Part shown: positions 16,054-24,429 of the stretch, piece after piece | Position numbering within the stretch: position 1 is the stretch's first letter | Layout: each line of letters begins with the position of its first letter | NCBI GenBank assembly: GCA_018659375.1 | Contig: JABJMO010000078.1 | Coordinates: 1 to 51,476 of the forward strand | DNA length: 51,476 bases | Source: Methanobacteriota archaeon | GTDB lineage: Archaea > Thermoplasmatota > Poseidoniia > Poseidoniales > Poseidoniaceae | Direction of reading: 5' to 3' | Position numbers and translations under genes: made by a program | Notes under the pieces: model-generated | What the model was told of the DNA's origin: nothing | Seen by the model: the letters and a program-made list of their open reading frames with translations, nothing else | Database searches by the model: none

Positions 16054-18003
16054 ATGATTTTGGTTGAATTGCCACAAGGCGTGGTCATTGAAGTACGGCG
16101 TGGCGGGCATGATGCCCTCGCTAAACTAGCCGGCGATATGTCGACACTTGGAATATCAGGATATATTAGAATTGAGCGTCGGCCTAAAGGTATAATTCCT
16201 CGAGTAAGCCAAGTGGTGATTCAGGATACAACTCCCCGTATTGCTCTGCATGAAGCAGATTTATTGTTGACGGGTTTGGAAGCATTGATGGAAATAGAGA
16301 AGGATTCTACCGCACTTGACGCATTGGTTTCATTAGTGGAGTTGCCTGATGATGACTTAGTAAGAATTGTTAATTTATACCCTGATGCAACCATTGCGCA
16401 GGAACAAGACACTAATTCCAACAATGGTGATGATTGGTGGAATTACGTTAGACTAAACACTAGCAGTTGGCGTCGGGAAGAGAGATTACCAGGGCAAGAA
16501 GTGTCTATGGAGGCACCAGAATATATACAACAACTTACCAAAGCAAAGTTGGAAACCTTTAGCGCCGGTGAAAGATTTCTAAATTATGGCGATGTATTGA
16601 TTGTTGATGATAGTGATTCTCACGCAATAATTGAACTTGGTAGCATTTTGGCTGGTTATGGGCGGCCATTATTGGTTCTCTCGAGACACAATAATGAGAT
16701 GTTGCTGAAACACTATTCACTGCCAAAAGGCTCTTGTCAGAGAATCTCTATCTTAGCAGAAGAATCTCCAACCGAATTAATTGAGCGTTTACAACAAAAA
16801 GTAACTAACTTTTTGTGGGCAAATAAGCAAGCGGTAGTTATCATTTCGGGATTTGAATATTTATTGAGCATAAGTGATCTGAAGAGTTCAATTGGAATGA
16901 TTTGCAATTTAGTTGACGCAATAAGAACGGGTGACCATTTGATGTTGACAAATTGTGACTTAGATATTTTTGATAATCTAGACAGACACCGGTTCCTAAA
17001 GGAATTTGATTTAATTCCCTCGGGGTTTGTCGAGGGGTTAGTAATTGATTCCGAGGCCTTAATCGACCACCCGATTTGTGTTGAATTATCCGATGAAGAA
17101 TTATCTTGGATAGAACAACAAATATCTTTTGCAACTTCAAAAGACCCTCAAGTAATAAGCGGAGGAGTAGTTTCAGGTGGAGCTTCTAACTTGGTGGACG
17201 AAGATGTTCTAGAAGTTAAGGGAAAATTAGCAGAACTAGTTGAAGATTGGCCCGGGAAAGAGGTTGAACAAACACCTCATCTGACTTCATTAGAGTCCAG
17301 ATTAATCGAGGATAATCAGATTAGTGAAGATTTCAAGCAAGCATTTGTACCTTCAATAACAGTTTCGAGCGAGATTGAATTAGTCTCACAAAATGATGTT
17401 GTTGGACAAGTAAAAAACCAAGACATAATCGTACAGCAATCATCATTATCTGAGCCTCAAATTAAGGGTCCTAGGAAAGCCATTAGGGTCAAGCGTGTGA
17501 AGAGAAAAAGTACTGATGTAAGACCTAGTAGATTGCATAAGCAATCGATTGCAGCAGCCGCTAAATCAAATGTTGAGTTGCCTAAATTCTCTCAAATTCC
17601 GGTTGCAAAATCAAATCGAGGAGCAGTCGGCATCGACCTTGACTCACGGTCTAATCGAATGTCCTCTGCATTGGAAAATATGTTGAAAAAACCAATTATG
17701 ACTCGGTCTAGAGAACTTTCACAAGCATTGAATCAAAAATCCTCTAAGACCAATCGTAATCTACCAAACATTGAAGTTAAATCTCAAATAAATGTCCCAT
17801 CCAAAGTAACTGATAAGTCAATTATCCATTCCGCTTCAAGGATTACCCAATCAAACAATAACCGCCGTTCTAGAGAATCTGCTACAAGAGTTCAAAATCC
17901 ATTAGATATTGAACATAATTATCAAAAATGGGCAACGGAATACAAACGGACTAGTGACACTTCAGACGGAATGGACAGTTCAGACGTAGGAGGTGAAGAT
18001 TGA
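16054..18003 (+). CDS. DUF835-like protein with long basic low-complexity tail
   Basis: A 649-residue protein. Residues 1-150 are an N-terminal region with VVIEVRRGGHDALAKLAGDM and an acidic helical part. Residues about 178-320 match the pattern of archaeal DUF835 domains: a strand, a GRPLLVLSR turn, then a segment VVIISGFEYLL and a final helix. Residues about 390-649 are Ser/Lys/Asn-rich, poorly conserved in character and likely disordered, with a basic patch RKAIRVKRVKRKSTD. DUF835 is found in archaeal signalling and unknown proteins. The frame can start at GTG 16051; ATG 16054 is preferred. The stop overlaps the next gene's ATG (TGATG), tying it to the DnaA-like ATPase. Confidence 0.65.
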   Translation: MILVELPQGVVIEVRRGGHDALAKLAGDMSTLGISGYIRIERRPKGIIPRVSQVVIQDTTPRIALHEADLLLTGLEALMEIEKDSTALDALVSLVELPDDDLVRIVNLYPDATIAQEQDTNSNNGDDWWNYVRLNTSSWRREERLPGQEVSMEAPEYIQQLTKAKLETFSAGERFLNYGDVLIVDDSDSHAIIELGSILAGYGRPLLVLSRHNNEMLLKHYSLPKGSCQRISILAEESPTELIERLQQKVTNFLWANKQAVVIISGFEYLLSISDLKSSIGMICNLVDAIRTGDHLMLTNCDLDIFDNLDRHRFLKEFDLIPSGFVEGLVIDSEALIDHPICVELSDEELSWIEQQISFATSKDPQVISGGVVSGGASNLVDEDVLEVKGKLAELVEDWPGKEVEQTPHLTSLESRLIEDNQISEDFKQAFVPSITVSSEIELVSQNDVVGQVKNQDIIVQQSSLSEPQIKGPRKAIRVKRVKRKSTDVRPSRLHKQSIAAAAKSNVELPKFSQIPVAKSNRGAVGIDLDSRSNRMSSALENMLKKPIMTRSRELSQALNQKSSKTNRNLPNIEVKSQINVPSKVTDKSIIHSASRITQSNNNRRSRESATRVQNPLDIEHNYQKWATEYKRTSDTSDGMDSSDVGGED

Positions 18004-20009
18004 TGTCAAAACCAACAAAGCTATTGTTAGCACTTAAAAATGCTAAAAAGCACCTTGAGATAGCCACCAAACAAGCCCCAAATGATGACCTTACAGCAGA
18101 GTTAGGGCGGACACATCAGCCAAAATCTAGATTAAATAAATTGGTTGGTGGCCCATACTCTCCCCCTGCAAAACGGCAGTCGCTCCTTTCTAGAGTAGGT
18201 GTGGCAAATCGTCCAACATACGACTTAATTGCTGATGGCATACTTGGTAAGAATGAAGGTTATCGGCCTAAATTATCATTGAATAAGACTGGAAGCGAAG
18301 TATCAAGTTTGGTTGCAGAGCGATTAAAAAACCTCAGAGAACGCACATTGAGTAAAATCTCTAGTGATACAAGTATTGCTGAATCATCCTTTTTTGGTTT
18401 TGAAGCAGATGGAACTCCTATTTGGAGTAGCGTTGTGTCAGGACAAAGAGGTATTGATGAAGGTTTACATCACCAAAGCAAACAGAAAAAGACCAACCTT
18501 GCTCATCATAGCATACATCTTCCAGTTATTGTTGATTGGCCAAAGACCCTTCAGCACAGTAGCCACCAAACTTACAAAACATGGTCTACAACAACAGAGA
18601 ATAGAAGAGCAACTCAGTTGAGTGAGAGAGTAATTGACTCACTCCAAGAAACACTAAATCCATTAATCTTGATTGGCGATTCTCAAACTGGTAAATCACA
18701 TCTAATTCACGCCATTGGTCAAGCAGTTTTACTCCGCAATGAAGGTCCTGTTTACTTCCTGAGAGGTGATGATTTAACTGAGATTTTGGATGTCGAAAAC
18801 ACTTGGTCAGATGTATTTGCTAATTGTGTTATGTTACTAATCGATGATATTGATCTAATTTTATCCGACCAAGAGGTGGCTAATCATGTTGGCAGAATGT
18901 TAGATTATGCACTTAATATGAATGTGCATGTTGTTGTTACTGCGAGAAGTTCTCCCGAAGATTGGCCTGCATCTTCGCTTTGGGACATACTTAGAGGAGG
19001 GGTTCGAAGCATACTTGGCCGTGTTGGTGCTGGTAGTTTGATGCTTTTTGCTAGAAAGTTATCAAATGAAAGGAATCTTATGCTTTCAGATGAACAATTA
19101 GCTTTAATCGTCACAGGTGGTGATGTTAGTTGGCGAGGCACTAGAAGCGGGATTGATAAAGTTGAATCCGCTATTGATGGGGGCGAAAAATTACTAGATA
19201 CTGTAGATGTCTACAAATTGCTAAACGATATTCATTCAGATGACGAAGATTACCTTGAAGAGTCGGAATCTGAAAGTGTTGAGGATATCGCTAATCGTTT
19301 GATTAGTTCAGTAATCGACGTAGTGTACAGTGATGATGAGATAGGCGGTATTGAAATAACAACCAAGTTGCCGGAACTTTCAGACAATTATACTCCTCCA
19401 GAAATCGATATTGAGTCATTTATTGGCAAACAAACTGACTTAGTTGAGGCCCACATTAAGAAAACTCTTGATGATTTAACACCAGAAGCTCCTTCTGTGG
19501 TTGATGTCCATGATCGGGATAAGCACTTGGTAGCTAAGATGACTCGTATAGTTAAGCAAGATCATGCTAAAGCGGCAGAAATTTTGACTGAACTTGACAT
19601 GGGTATCGATCAAAAGTTTGCTTACTCGGATGGTGAGATAAACCAAAACACTGGTCGACTGATTGAATTAGAATCAATGTTATTAAACCTCGCCGATAGG
19701 ACTTCAGATGCATCTTTAGAGGGATTAATCGGTATCGCAGATGAATTGAGGGAACTAGAAAACCAATTGGTTTCATTAGACCCTGAACGTGGACCTTTGC
19801 CTGAATTCGTGGAAGATGAGTTAGATTCATACACCCCTAGTGAGGAATGGAATATTGATTCTTCTGATGTCACTGCTGGTTCTTTGATTGACGGTGATTC
19901 GATAACACTGAATCCAATTGACGGGATACTCGAGCCACATCCCGAAGGTTCAGTGAAAACTGCGACTATAACTCCAGTAGGGGTAGTTATTGATGGGGAA
20001 GAAGAATGA
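18003..20009 (+). CDS. DnaA-like AAA+ ATPase with long N- and C-terminal extensions
   Basis: A 668-residue protein. The central part (about 175-400) is a AAA+ module of the DnaA/Hda/DnaC type: Walker A GDSQTGKS at 225-232, a strand VYFLRGDDL, Walker B VMLLIDDIDLI at 276-286, sensor 1 strand VVVTARSSP at 310-318. There is no DnaA DNA-binding domain IV. Residues 1-170 are basic and mostly polar; 410-668 are strongly acidic. It follows the DUF835-like gene with a TGATG overlap and a GGAGGTGA Shine-Dalgarno, and its stop overlaps the YkgJ-type gene. Archaea replicate with Orc1/Cdc6, so this is probably not an initiator; a remodeller or positioning ATPase working with its upstream partner is possible but unproven. 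Confidence 0.7.
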   Translation: MSKPTKLLLALKNAKKHLEIATKQAPNDDLTAELGRTHQPKSRLNKLVGGPYSPPAKRQSLLSRVGVANRPTYDLIADGILGKNEGYRPKLSLNKTGSEVSSLVAERLKNLRERTLSKISSDTSIAESSFFGFEADGTPIWSSVVSGQRGIDEGLHHQSKQKKTNLAHHSIHLPVIVDWPKTLQHSSHQTYKTWSTTTENRRATQLSERVIDSLQETLNPLILIGDSQTGKSHLIHAIGQAVLLRNEGPVYFLRGDDLTEILDVENTWSDVFANCVMLLIDDIDLILSDQEVANHVGRMLDYALNMNVHVVVTARSSPEDWPASSLWDILRGGVRSILGRVGAGSLMLFARKLSNERNLMLSDEQLALIVTGGDVSWRGTRSGIDKVESAIDGGEKLLDTVDVYKLLNDIHSDDEDYLEESESESVEDIANRLISSVIDVVYSDDEIGGIEITTKLPELSDNYTPPEIDIESFIGKQTDLVEAHIKKTLDDLTPEAPSVVDVHDRDKHLVAKMTRIVKQDHAKAAEILTELDMGIDQKFAYSDGEINQNTGRLIELESMLLNLADRTSDASLEGLIGIADELRELENQLVSLDPERGPLPEFVEDELDSYTPSEEWNIDSSDVTAGSLIDGDSITLNPIDGILEPHPEGSVKTATITPVGVVIDGEEE

Positions 20010-20535: not shown

Positions 20536-21711
20536 GTGGGACTTATGGATGATGAGAAAGTTCTTTGTGAAGTGACTGAAAATCACTTAAACACAGGGCT
20601 AAGAGGTATTCCTGTTGGAACTTGTCGAACTTCTTTCGTCACCCCTACAGAGGGTGTTCACTATTGTGGGTACCCAATAAAAGAGTTAGTTGATTTTAGT
20701 CCAGAAGACATAATCTATCTTTTATTTAATAAGGAATTACCTACATCTGACCAATCATCTGCTTTCAAAGCAGACTTAGCCGTTAGAGGTCATGTGCCCT
20801 CTGGATTGACAAATGTCTTGCAAACATTACCAAAAGATGGTCACCCAATGGATTGGCTTTCGGTTGGTATTCAGACTCTTGGTATGTTAGAAACTACCGA
20901 TAACTGGCGCGAAGATTCTTTGAATCTAATTGCTAGAATGCCAAGATTGATGGGTTTGATTTTCCGTTATCGTGAGGGTAGAGGGGAAGATATCGCAGTT
21001 GATGATACCAGTAAATCTCTAGTTCAAAGGTTCGTCGACACAGTCGGTGTTGATGAACATTTGAGAGCGAAGATGGAACGAGTGGTATCGACTTATCTAG
21101 TTCTCCACATGGACCACGGCGGTGGAAATCTGTCAACCTTTACCGGTAAATCAATTGCTTCAGGAAAAGCCACTGTTTACTCTGCTATTGCTGGTGCAAT
21201 GAATGCTTTGTCAGGGCCTCTGCACGGGCGTGCGAACCAGTCATGTCTGGAATTCGTCTTGAAAATTGGCACAAGTGATGAAGCAGAAGTGGAACAGTTT
21301 GTTCGTAATGAATTGAAAGAAGGCCGCCCAGTGTTTGGATTTGGCCATGCTGTTCTGAGTGTGGAGGATCCTAGAGCAACTGCTCAATTCGCAATCGGTG
21401 AAGAGATTTGTCCTGACGATGAGAATTTCAAAGTAATCAGAACTTTGCGCAAGGTCGCACCAATGGTGTTGTCGGAAAATAAGAAAATTCGTAACCCCAA
21501 TGCCAATGTCGATATTGCTAGTGGTGCCTTACTCTACCATGTTGGCCTTACTGACCCAACCTACTACACGACCTTCTTTGGTTGGGCTAGAGTTGCCGGT
21601 ATTGGAGCACAGATAGTTGATGAGCGAACAGTGCTAAGGTCGGGTAAAGGAGTTCCAATTTACCGCCCTAAATACTTTGCAGAAGGACAAGAACTTCGTC
21701 ATATTGAGTGA
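20536..21711 (+). CDS. gltA: Citrate synthase
   Basis: A 391-residue citrate synthase, which condenses oxaloacetate and acetyl-CoA at the entry of the TCA cycle. The catalytic triad is visible as H230 in SGPLHGRANQ, H271 in GFGHAVL and D326 in VDIASGALLYH. Other landmarks are GTCRTSFVTPTEGVHYCGY at the N terminus and HMDHGGGNLSTFTGK. Size fits the short archaeal/Gram-positive type. Start: GTG at 20536 is preferred because GGGAG lies six nt upstream and a TATA box 31 nt upstream; ATG at 20545 is the alternative. It is convergent with the GDPD gene, 3 nt apart. A 2-methylcitrate synthase activity cannot be excluded. Confidence 0.93.
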   Translation: MGLMDDEKVLCEVTENHLNTGLRGIPVGTCRTSFVTPTEGVHYCGYPIKELVDFSPEDIIYLLFNKELPTSDQSSAFKADLAVRGHVPSGLTNVLQTLPKDGHPMDWLSVGIQTLGMLETTDNWREDSLNLIARMPRLMGLIFRYREGRGEDIAVDDTSKSLVQRFVDTVGVDEHLRAKMERVVSTYLVLHMDHGGGNLSTFTGKSIASGKATVYSAIAGAMNALSGPLHGRANQSCLEFVLKIGTSDEAEVEQFVRNELKEGRPVFGFGHAVLSVEDPRATAQFAIGEEICPDDENFKVIRTLRKVAPMVLSENKKIRNPNANVDIASGALLYHVGLTDPTYYTTFFGWARVAGIGAQIVDERTVLRSGKGVPIYRPKYFAEGQELRHIE

Positions 21712-21714
21712 TGA

Positions 21715-22872
21715 TTATTGTAATACAGGTCTAGCAGTCTTTCCTGAACCTCTATGGCCGATTAATCTGACACATTCCCATGGTGGTGAGTCTGAAGATG
21801 TTTCAACCAATTTATCAACATCAATATTCCAATTCCACTTATCTTGCCACATTTTAATCAATTCCCGCTTTCTACTATTATTACACTCAATCCAAGGGCT
21901 TACTTCATGCTCCAATTGTTTGATCACGTCTCTATGCGTTGCATAATCGGCATTCTCAATCAATTGCATTTGCTGAGCATCCAGGGGTTTAGTTGCAGGT
22001 TTCTGCCACCTAGCACCATTTCCGTTATTGTACCATGTATAATTAGGGTCTAAATTATCTGTTAACCCAGTTATTCCAGAATTAAGTAAACTATACTCGT
22101 AATTTTCATTTGCTGGCCAAACATATACCGGGATTCCAGATTGACATTTTCTAAAATGATTTAATTTCCTGCCACTTAGCCCAACGCTTCGACCTAACAA
22201 GGCGCGATTGTAGAATGGTTGGAAATATTCGATAGCGCACGGTACCATTGAGGCACCTCGACTTCTATGTTTATTTATCAATCTTGAAAAAGGCGTGATG
22301 AAGTATTGTGGATAAGCCATTAGACGCTTAATTTTACTATGGCCAAACCTGGGTACAACTGGTAGTAATTCTGCCCAATGACGTTTTGAGTCAGCTATTT
22401 TTATCGATTTGTGCATTTTATTGTGGAATGCGTAAAACACTGTATTGCCATTTGGAATCGAATATTCATCCAACATTTGTTCAGCTTTAGAAATCATTTT
22501 GCTGAGTATTGTAGTTACTTTACTGCCACCCAAATATCCACCACCTTCGGGGGATTTAGGGTGTGGTCTTTTCAATTCCAAACAGACCATTTTCCCTTGA
22601 TCTCGCCATTGAGATATCACTTCAGTATCTTGTAGTAATTCATCTAGCGAGCAAAAACCGAACTCCTGTAACTCTGCTAGTTCCCAACTTTCGACATATG
22701 GGTTTGCGTTGCCTAACAATGATTTTTCAACTGAGACTTTGGAATCGTGATGAATGATTAACTCCCCATCAGCAGTGATTCTAAGGTCTAGCTCAATACC
22801 ATCAGAGGTAGAAATTCCATGTCGCAAACTAGCCAAAGTATTTTCCGGGGGTTGTACCCAGTTGTCTGACAC
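21715..22872 (-). CDS. Glycerophosphodiester phosphodiesterase-like protein, circularly permuted
   Basis: A 385-residue GDPD-family TIM barrel, which hydrolyses glycerophosphodiesters. The protein begins at what is normally the end of the first loop: QPPENTLASLRHGI (7-20), then GIELDLRITADGELIIHHD with E27, D29, H42 and D43. E99/K101 lie in LELK, and the closing barrel strand is VYVWPAN followed by GITGLTDNLDP. The first strand of the usual family, with the catalytic HRG, is missing from the N terminus and instead forms the last 16 residues (LIGHRGSGKTARPVLQ; H373, R374). Upstream in frame there is no HRG and no ATG before a stop at 22924, so the GTG start at 22872 is the only choice. All catalytic residues are present, in permuted order. 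Confidence 0.82.
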   Translation of the reverse strand: MSDNWVQPPENTLASLRHGISTSDGIELDLRITADGELIIHHDSKVSVEKSLLGNANPYVESWELAELQEFGFCSLDELLQDTEVISQWRDQGKMVCLELKRPHPKSPEGGGYLGGSKVTTILSKMISKAEQMLDEYSIPNGNTVFYAFHNKMHKSIKIADSKRHWAELLPVVPRFGHSKIKRLMAYPQYFITPFSRLINKHRSRGASMVPCAIEYFQPFYNRALLGRSVGLSGRKLNHFRKCQSGIPVYVWPANENYEYSLLNSGITGLTDNLDPNYTWYNNGNGARWQKPATKPLDAQQMQLIENADYATHRDVIKQLEHEVSPWIECNNSRKRELIKMWQDKWNWNIDVDKLVETSSDSPPWECVRLIGHRGSGKTARPVLQ

Positions 22873-22967
22873 ATATCGGGCAGTAGATGTTGATTCAAAA
22901 TATGATGTGTCGCTGGTTTGGGTTTATCTGATAAATCGGTTGATAAAACTCATTGTGGTGAAAAAGG

Positions 22968-22973
22968 ATATAT
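22968..22973 (+). promoter_or_regulatory. TATA box candidate for the PAP2 gene
   Basis: ATATAT lies 28 nt before the ATG at 22996, in the 123-nt divergent region between the GDPD gene and this gene. The spacing equals that seen before gcvT, gcvPA and the gene at 51099, consistent with a leaderless transcript. No Shine-Dalgarno sequence is evident before this start. Confidence 0.4.
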
Positions 22974-22995
22974 CGGCAAAGGTCTGGACTATACT

Positions 22996-24429
22996 ATGAG
23001 TCCATACACTGTCATGATGATGCTAGTGGTTTTTTTCACTCCAGTGGTGTGTTGGCTATTCTCTTTAACTCAACGAGAACATCGGGTTCCACTCAAGCAA
23101 ATGGCATCAGAATTTCATGATAACCGGTACTATCTGCACATAATCGGTTATCTCGCGATTGTCAGATTAAAATCGGTAACTGACTTACTAAATGAGCCAA
23201 TTAAGTCTGAAGTCGGCCATTGGACAGATTTTGTTTATAGTATTGAGGGTGAATTCACTAAATCTATACAAGATTTTTTTGTCAATGACTTACTTACTAC
23301 CGTATTAAATTTCCATTATTTGTTTATTTACTTGTTTCTGATTTATGTAACTACGGTATACTTTGCTTATACTGGTGACCGAAACATGACCGATAAAGTC
23401 ACTATGAACTATTTGCTGATCTATGCTCTTGCAGTGCCATATTACTTGTTTTTCAATGTAGAAGTCACTTCATCTTGGATTCCTGGAATGGAGGCTTTAC
23501 TGTACCATGACGGTGCTTATTCGGTATTTTATGCGACCCATGACCCCTTGGATAATGCCGTGCCATCACTCCATATTGCAATACCATTTGGTATTTTGAT
23601 GCTTAATTATCTGCACGTCAAAGAATCTGGCGGCAAGATGAAAGATTGGCGGCATTATAACTATCATATGTTTATCTTGATCAATACAATTCTGTTTATG
23701 TTTTCAATCTTATATCTTGGGATTCATTGGTTTGTTGATATACCTCTAGGTATGCTAATTGGTAGTATAGGTGCACTGTTTATCCATCATTTACAACCAC
23801 GGATGAGAAATGATCATGGTTCATTCCTCAAGGGAATTGACAAAATAAAAGCTAGAAAACACGCAGTCATAGAAGGCGCAATTACCCTTGTGATGTTTAC
23901 TTTGATTCTCATGGCGATTAATGTTCAAGTAGAAAACTCTGAGGACAGAGTGTCATTCCGCCTAGGTCCAGAAGATTCAACCTATGAAATAATTCAGGAA
24001 CTGAAATATGGAGAAGAGGTTAATTCAACAATAAAAAATCTTGACACCTCTCTATTACTAGAAGTGGTACACATCAATGTTGAAGATAGTGCTAAGGCAA
24101 TGGCAAATGGCTCCATCGATTGGCAATATCTCACTACTTTAGGTGAACACTATCTAATCTATCCTGGTCAAGAAATTCATTTGACCACAGATACTCCGCT
24201 GTTTTATCATTTAATTGTCATGCATAATCCAAGCAATAATAGCAACGATATTATCGAGGTAAGTGTAGTAAATGATTATCATGATGACCAGATGTGGAAA
24301 GCTATCCTTCTGTCTGTACCATCACTGTGGATGACAGCATTCGTAATCCATCGGTTACAGAGATTGAAATTGAATAGCAGGTCATTTGTCGACTCATCTC
24401 CGTCCCATCTTTGGTTAGAGCAAGAATAG
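22996..24429 (+). CDS. PAP2-superfamily integral membrane phosphatase
   Basis: A 477-residue membrane protein with about six segments in the first 270 residues. The PAP2 signature is split as usual: AVPSLHIA (PSLH at 190-193) and YLGIHWFVDIPLG with H244 and D248, which act as acid/base and nucleophile in lipid phosphate phosphatases and inositolphosphotransferase-like enzymes. After the core comes a membrane segment near 300 and an outside beta-like domain of about 130 residues (VENSEDRVSFRLGPEDS onward), then another segment near 455 and a short tail. The frame extends upstream to TTG 22918, but ATG 22996 with a TATA box at -28 is preferred. Divergent from the GDPD gene, which hints at a shared lipid headgroup role. 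Confidence 0.82.
   Translation: MSPYTVMMMLVVFFTPVVCWLFSLTQREHRVPLKQMASEFHDNRYYLHIIGYLAIVRLKSVTDLLNEPIKSEVGHWTDFVYSIEGEFTKSIQDFFVNDLLTTVLNFHYLFIYLFLIYVTTVYFAYTGDRNMTDKVTMNYLLIYALAVPYYLFFNVEVTSSWIPGMEALLYHDGAYSVFYATHDPLDNAVPSLHIAIPFGILMLNYLHVKESGGKMKDWRHYNYHMFILINTILFMFSILYLGIHWFVDIPLGMLIGSIGALFIHHLQPRMRNDHGSFLKGIDKIKARKHAVIEGAITLVMFTLILMAINVQVENSEDRVSFRLGPEDSTYEIIQELKYGEEVNSTIKNLDTSLLLEVVHINVEDSAKAMANGSIDWQYLTTLGEHYLIYPGQEIHLTTDTPLFYHLIVMHNPSNNSNDIIEVSVVNDYHDDQMWKAILLSVPSLWMTAFVIHRLQRLKLNSRSFVDSSPSHLWLEQE

Follow-up and report, generated by a model that had tools for sequence, protein, structure and literature searches.

Can a glycerophosphodiester phosphodiesterase (GDPD), a common enzyme of lipid recycling, carry the first strand of its barrel at the end of the chain? 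The question is raised by a reverse-strand open reading frame near the middle of the window, the whole 51,476-nucleotide stretch of archaeal DNA analyzed here, in which the PENT motif stands at the start of the product and the HRG motif at its end. We conclude that the protein is very probably a GDPD TIM barrel that has undergone natural circular permutation. A first-pass annotation made from the letters alone had offered this reading, which is supported by an eighth strand in two structural models and by the order of motifs in related genomes; the two findings that it named as speaking against permutation, a joined pair of genes and homologues with the HRG in front, were not encountered. Its open reading frame and coordinates stand, and the positions that it gave for PPENT, E27, D29, H42-D43, E99, K101 and the HRG with the residues after it are exact. 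The features of the gene are as follows.

21715..22872, reverse strand: candidate permuted GDPD of 385 amino acids, with a GTG start and its stop at 21715-21717, placed by the PF03009 match and by homologues that start within a few residues
22837..22851, reverse strand: PPENT, residues 8-12, start of the first helix, with the new N-terminus just before it; N11 and E10 are conserved
22786..22794, reverse strand: E27-x-D29, invariant, the alignment partners of E44 and D46 of 2pz0
22744..22749, reverse strand: H42-D43, with H42 invariant and aligned to its counterpart H59 of 2pz0
22570..22578, reverse strand: E99-x-K101, invariant in the homologues
21766..22056, reverse strand: residues 273-369, the putative join of the old C-terminus to the old N-terminus, from the AlphaFold2 secondary structure
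21754..21765, reverse strand: residues 370-373, the putative moved first barrel strand, called as a strand by DSSP in the AlphaFold2 models
21748..21756, reverse strand: HRG, residues 373-375, invariant, corresponding to H17-R18-G19 of 2pz0 after rotation

Ten residues follow the HRG before the new C-terminus. An in-frame stop lies 17 codons 5' of the GTG, and reading the region from that stop to the start bears out the earlier statement that it holds no HRG. The protein matches the Pfam GDPD profile, PF03009, with an E-value of 1.6e-12 and 48.5 bits (curated cut-off 23.6), and in its native order the match covers profile positions 9-237 of 244, leaving the HRG end of the profile unmatched. 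The residues by which the family is recognized are all present: the catalytic histidine and arginine of the HRG, the ExD, the second histidine and the ExK. The HRG strand, first in the chain in the family, is last here, and the protein is therefore a permuted variant of PF03009 rather than an ordinary member. In 2pz0, we take E44 and D46 to be metal ligands and H59 presumably to be the second catalytic histidine; Shi et al. are said to have read H17-R18-G19 as catalytic in 2008.

Placing the C-terminal 23 residues in front of the rest of the chain restores the order of the family and improves the match. The Pfam score of the window protein rises from 48.5 to 52.7 bits and the start of the match moves from profile position 9 to 1, whereas a control with the same residues shuffled scores 48.8 bits and still starts at 9. 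Two homologues also gain in score, with L062 rising from 50.5 to 56.9 bits and L020 from 50.7 to 52.3. Profiles built from the same 12 sequences in native and rotated order were also compared with solved structures, nearly all of which score higher against the rotated profile: 2otd goes from 30.1 to 38.3 bits, 7wwc from 22.7 to 31.0, 3no3 from 30.1 to 35.4 and 2pz0, with whose H17-R18-G19 the rotated HRG aligns, from 51.7 to 54.4. A few PDB entries do not gain; 3qvq and 3ch0, for example, score weakly either way.

The same arrangement is found throughout the order. A protein search recovered a homologue in 138 of 146 genomes, and 65 distinct open reading frames were read. The first-pass annotation had proposed searching related genomes for PENT first and HRG last, and 57 of the 65 have just this order within one chain, with a start codon beside PENT and a stop 5-15 residues past the HRG; in none does an HRG lie upstream of PENT. 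Start codons of the homologues fall within a few residues of a W-x-Q-P-x-EN motif, often as ATG-W. Seven of the remaining eight run off a contig end or are damaged at one side, with the C-terminal HRG still visible in two of them. The other one (L065, genome G090, contig C3, at 1183 on the reverse strand) stops about 35 residues short and lacks the HRG end; none of the reading frames contains a frame-shifted HRG in the 300 bases read past it. It may be a natural loss, a pseudogene or a sequence error. The segment of about 90 extra residues that the annotation described is real in the window protein, and its length does not hold for all relatives: in several genera (L050, L060, L066, L067, L076) the linker is some 25-30 residues shorter, with strand and HRG kept.

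Conservation within the group bears on whether the protein is still a GDPD. Among 45 aligned homologues, down to 27% identity to the window protein, N11, E27, D29, H42, E99, K101, H373, R374 and G375 are invariant and E10 is nearly so; W327, W365 and R288 are conserved as well. We predict, with moderate confidence, that the protein is an active GDPD with glycerol phosphate as a product; cleavage of glycerophosphodiesters would release it together with an alcohol, by the metal-dependent mechanism with two histidines that is usual in the family. The permuted fold could instead have lost GDPD activity and taken another role, such as binding phosphodiesters or hydrolyzing another substrate, and the long divergence from ordinary GDPDs, the extra conserved residues W327, W365 and R288, and the retention of the gene in G090 without its HRG end are in keeping with such a loss. 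We consider it unlikely, however, as the seven catalytic-type residues are all invariant in these homologues.

Structural models agree with a permuted arrangement. AlphaFold2 models of the window protein (mean pLDDT 94.9, pTM 0.93) and of L062, which is 31% identical to it (94.7 and 0.93), share one layout: the body has seven strands, the linker is helical, and a final strand, at 370-373 in the window protein and at 356-359 in L062, terminates in the histidine of the HRG. A DSSP strand call requires a bonded neighbor. The structure prediction that the first-pass annotation had suggested has thus returned an eighth strand in a confident model, and again in a distant homologue. The linker of the window protein forms four helices (299-307, 313-323, 332-346 and 352-358), and its residues 273-369 match no known domain in Pfam or the PDB. 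A second, truncated barrel at the C-terminus is ruled out by the length and helical secondary structure of the 90 extra residues. Solved GDPDs are the best Foldseek matches to the two models (E-values of 2.5e-8 and 1.4e-8), with modest TM-scores, at best 0.68 by target length, as is expected because the alignment retains chain order. From the models we infer strongly that strands 8 and 2 flank the C-terminal strand; secondary structure, model confidence and invariance together suggest that H373 and R374 sit in the active site.

The models are of monomers, and the long linker would permit the C-terminal HRG strand to complete the barrel of a neighboring subunit instead of its own; the window model nevertheless stays highly confident throughout linker and tail (blocks 89-97), and such a domain swap seems to us highly improbable. 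In the permuted monomer, the chain would have been broken next to the active site, in the loop that leads from the first strand, with the HRG, to the first helix, with PENT, and the old ends, after the eighth strand and before the first, would have been joined by the roughly 90 mainly helical residues. The first strand, now last, would reoccupy its former position between strands 8 and 2, by which H373 and R374 would be brought to their usual place.

The gene lies between two neighbors in the window.

20536..21711, forward strand: citrate synthase, convergent neighbor (PF00285, E-value 1.1e-86)
22918..24429, forward strand: PAP2-superfamily membrane protein, divergent neighbor (PF01569, E-value 5e-7)

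The citrate synthase stands tail-to-tail with the permuted gene at nearly all loci that are long enough, in both families of the order. The divergent position of the PAP2 gene is retained in the genus and in part of family f1, to which the window's genome belongs; its homologues align from residue 27 onward in many loci, and the ATG at 22996 is the more likely start. We note also a 669-amino-acid open reading frame at 18000-20009 on the forward strand that has a bacterial DnaA-type ATPase domain (PF00308, E-value 1.5e-10) in an archaeal genome. The source genome of 1.9 Mb is fragmented into 80 contigs, but an assembly or sequencing artefact, a chance event or a fusion of two gene pieces is as good as ruled out: 57 of the 65 distinct reading frames show the same order, and they come, with conserved neighbors, from many genomes of two families that were assembled independently, one of them (G056) in a single contig.

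Bacterial and archaeal GDPDs of PF03009, such as 2pz0 (Thermoanaerobacter tengcongensis), 4oec (Thermococcus), 7e0v (Pyrococcus) and 1o1z (Thermotoga), have the same motifs and motif residues as the window protein, in the same order but for the moved strand, and are its best structural matches; their HRG strand comes first, and they lack its approximately 90 extra helical residues and the opening of its chain in the active-site loop. In related archaea, ordinary GDPDs (L090, L098-L109) belong to the same family and have the HRG first in all those read. Members of a GDPD-like group in family f2 of the same order (L091-L097) are about 200 amino acids long, with GHRLG replacing the HRG, and in front; they have a WEFD motif and the usual motif order. 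Natural circular permutants exist among other TIM barrels, as in GH70 relative to GH13, which is the same kind of rearrangement in other families. No published circular permutation of the GDPD family was found in the literature outside subscription journals, judged partly by title, and we appear to have here a real, conserved and apparently unreported permutation of a known enzyme family.

When the phylum was searched with an alignment as query, full-length matches were confined to the order's two families. Elsewhere, in the third family of the class and in other members of the phylum, the matches are short and fall on ordinary GDPDs, with the HRG in front in those read, and no permuted relative beyond the order was seen among 194 genomes drawn from the phylum. 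Phages and plasmids gave no relatives, nor did viral contigs, in which there were 66 pattern matches. In a tree with 18 ordinary GDPDs the permuted proteins fall on one side of a branch with support of 93/97, subject to a long-branch warning. One genome of the order, G103, encodes an ordinary GDPD on contig C11 (L090; HRG in front, PF03009 E-value 1.3e-33). Neither a permuted copy nor a citrate synthase was found in G103, and the locus may be missing from its assembly. The single group and the shared citrate synthase neighbor both fit, and are most simply explained by, a single event that predates the split of the two families. We infer that one tandem duplication or fusion gave rise to the gene, with the outer parts lost before the order diversified.

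In a search of 40 genomes, PF03009 has one match each in the window's genome, where the permuted protein is the sole GDPD found, and in the other f1 genomes with a match (G074, also of f1, has none); two matches occur in several f2 genomes. PF01210 and PF01884 both have a match in the window's genome and PF13685 has none, which agrees with the view that the order is without the enzyme behind the archaeal glycerol phosphate backbone and may make mixed membranes (PMC6461757); the mixed lipids proposed for the order are archaeal ethers on a G3P backbone. G3P could come from a GDPD, among other sources (PMC6737245), so which glycerol phosphate the permuted enzyme releases bears on the mixed-membrane question. 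Tentatively, and with rather low confidence, we suggest that two chain ends left free at the barrel mouth could have changed the substrate range, for instance toward diesters from mixed lipids, on a route from lipid debris to glycerol phosphate. If this is true, the permuted GDPD, the only one found in most genomes of the family, would be their lipid-debris route. A permutation in the active-site loop has gone to fixation across a whole order of abundant marine archaea, and the permuted proteins and their ordinary relatives, being directly comparable, offer a clean way to test the importance of chain order to a TIM-barrel enzyme. Searches anchored on an N-terminal HRG would miss or misdescribe such GDPDs.
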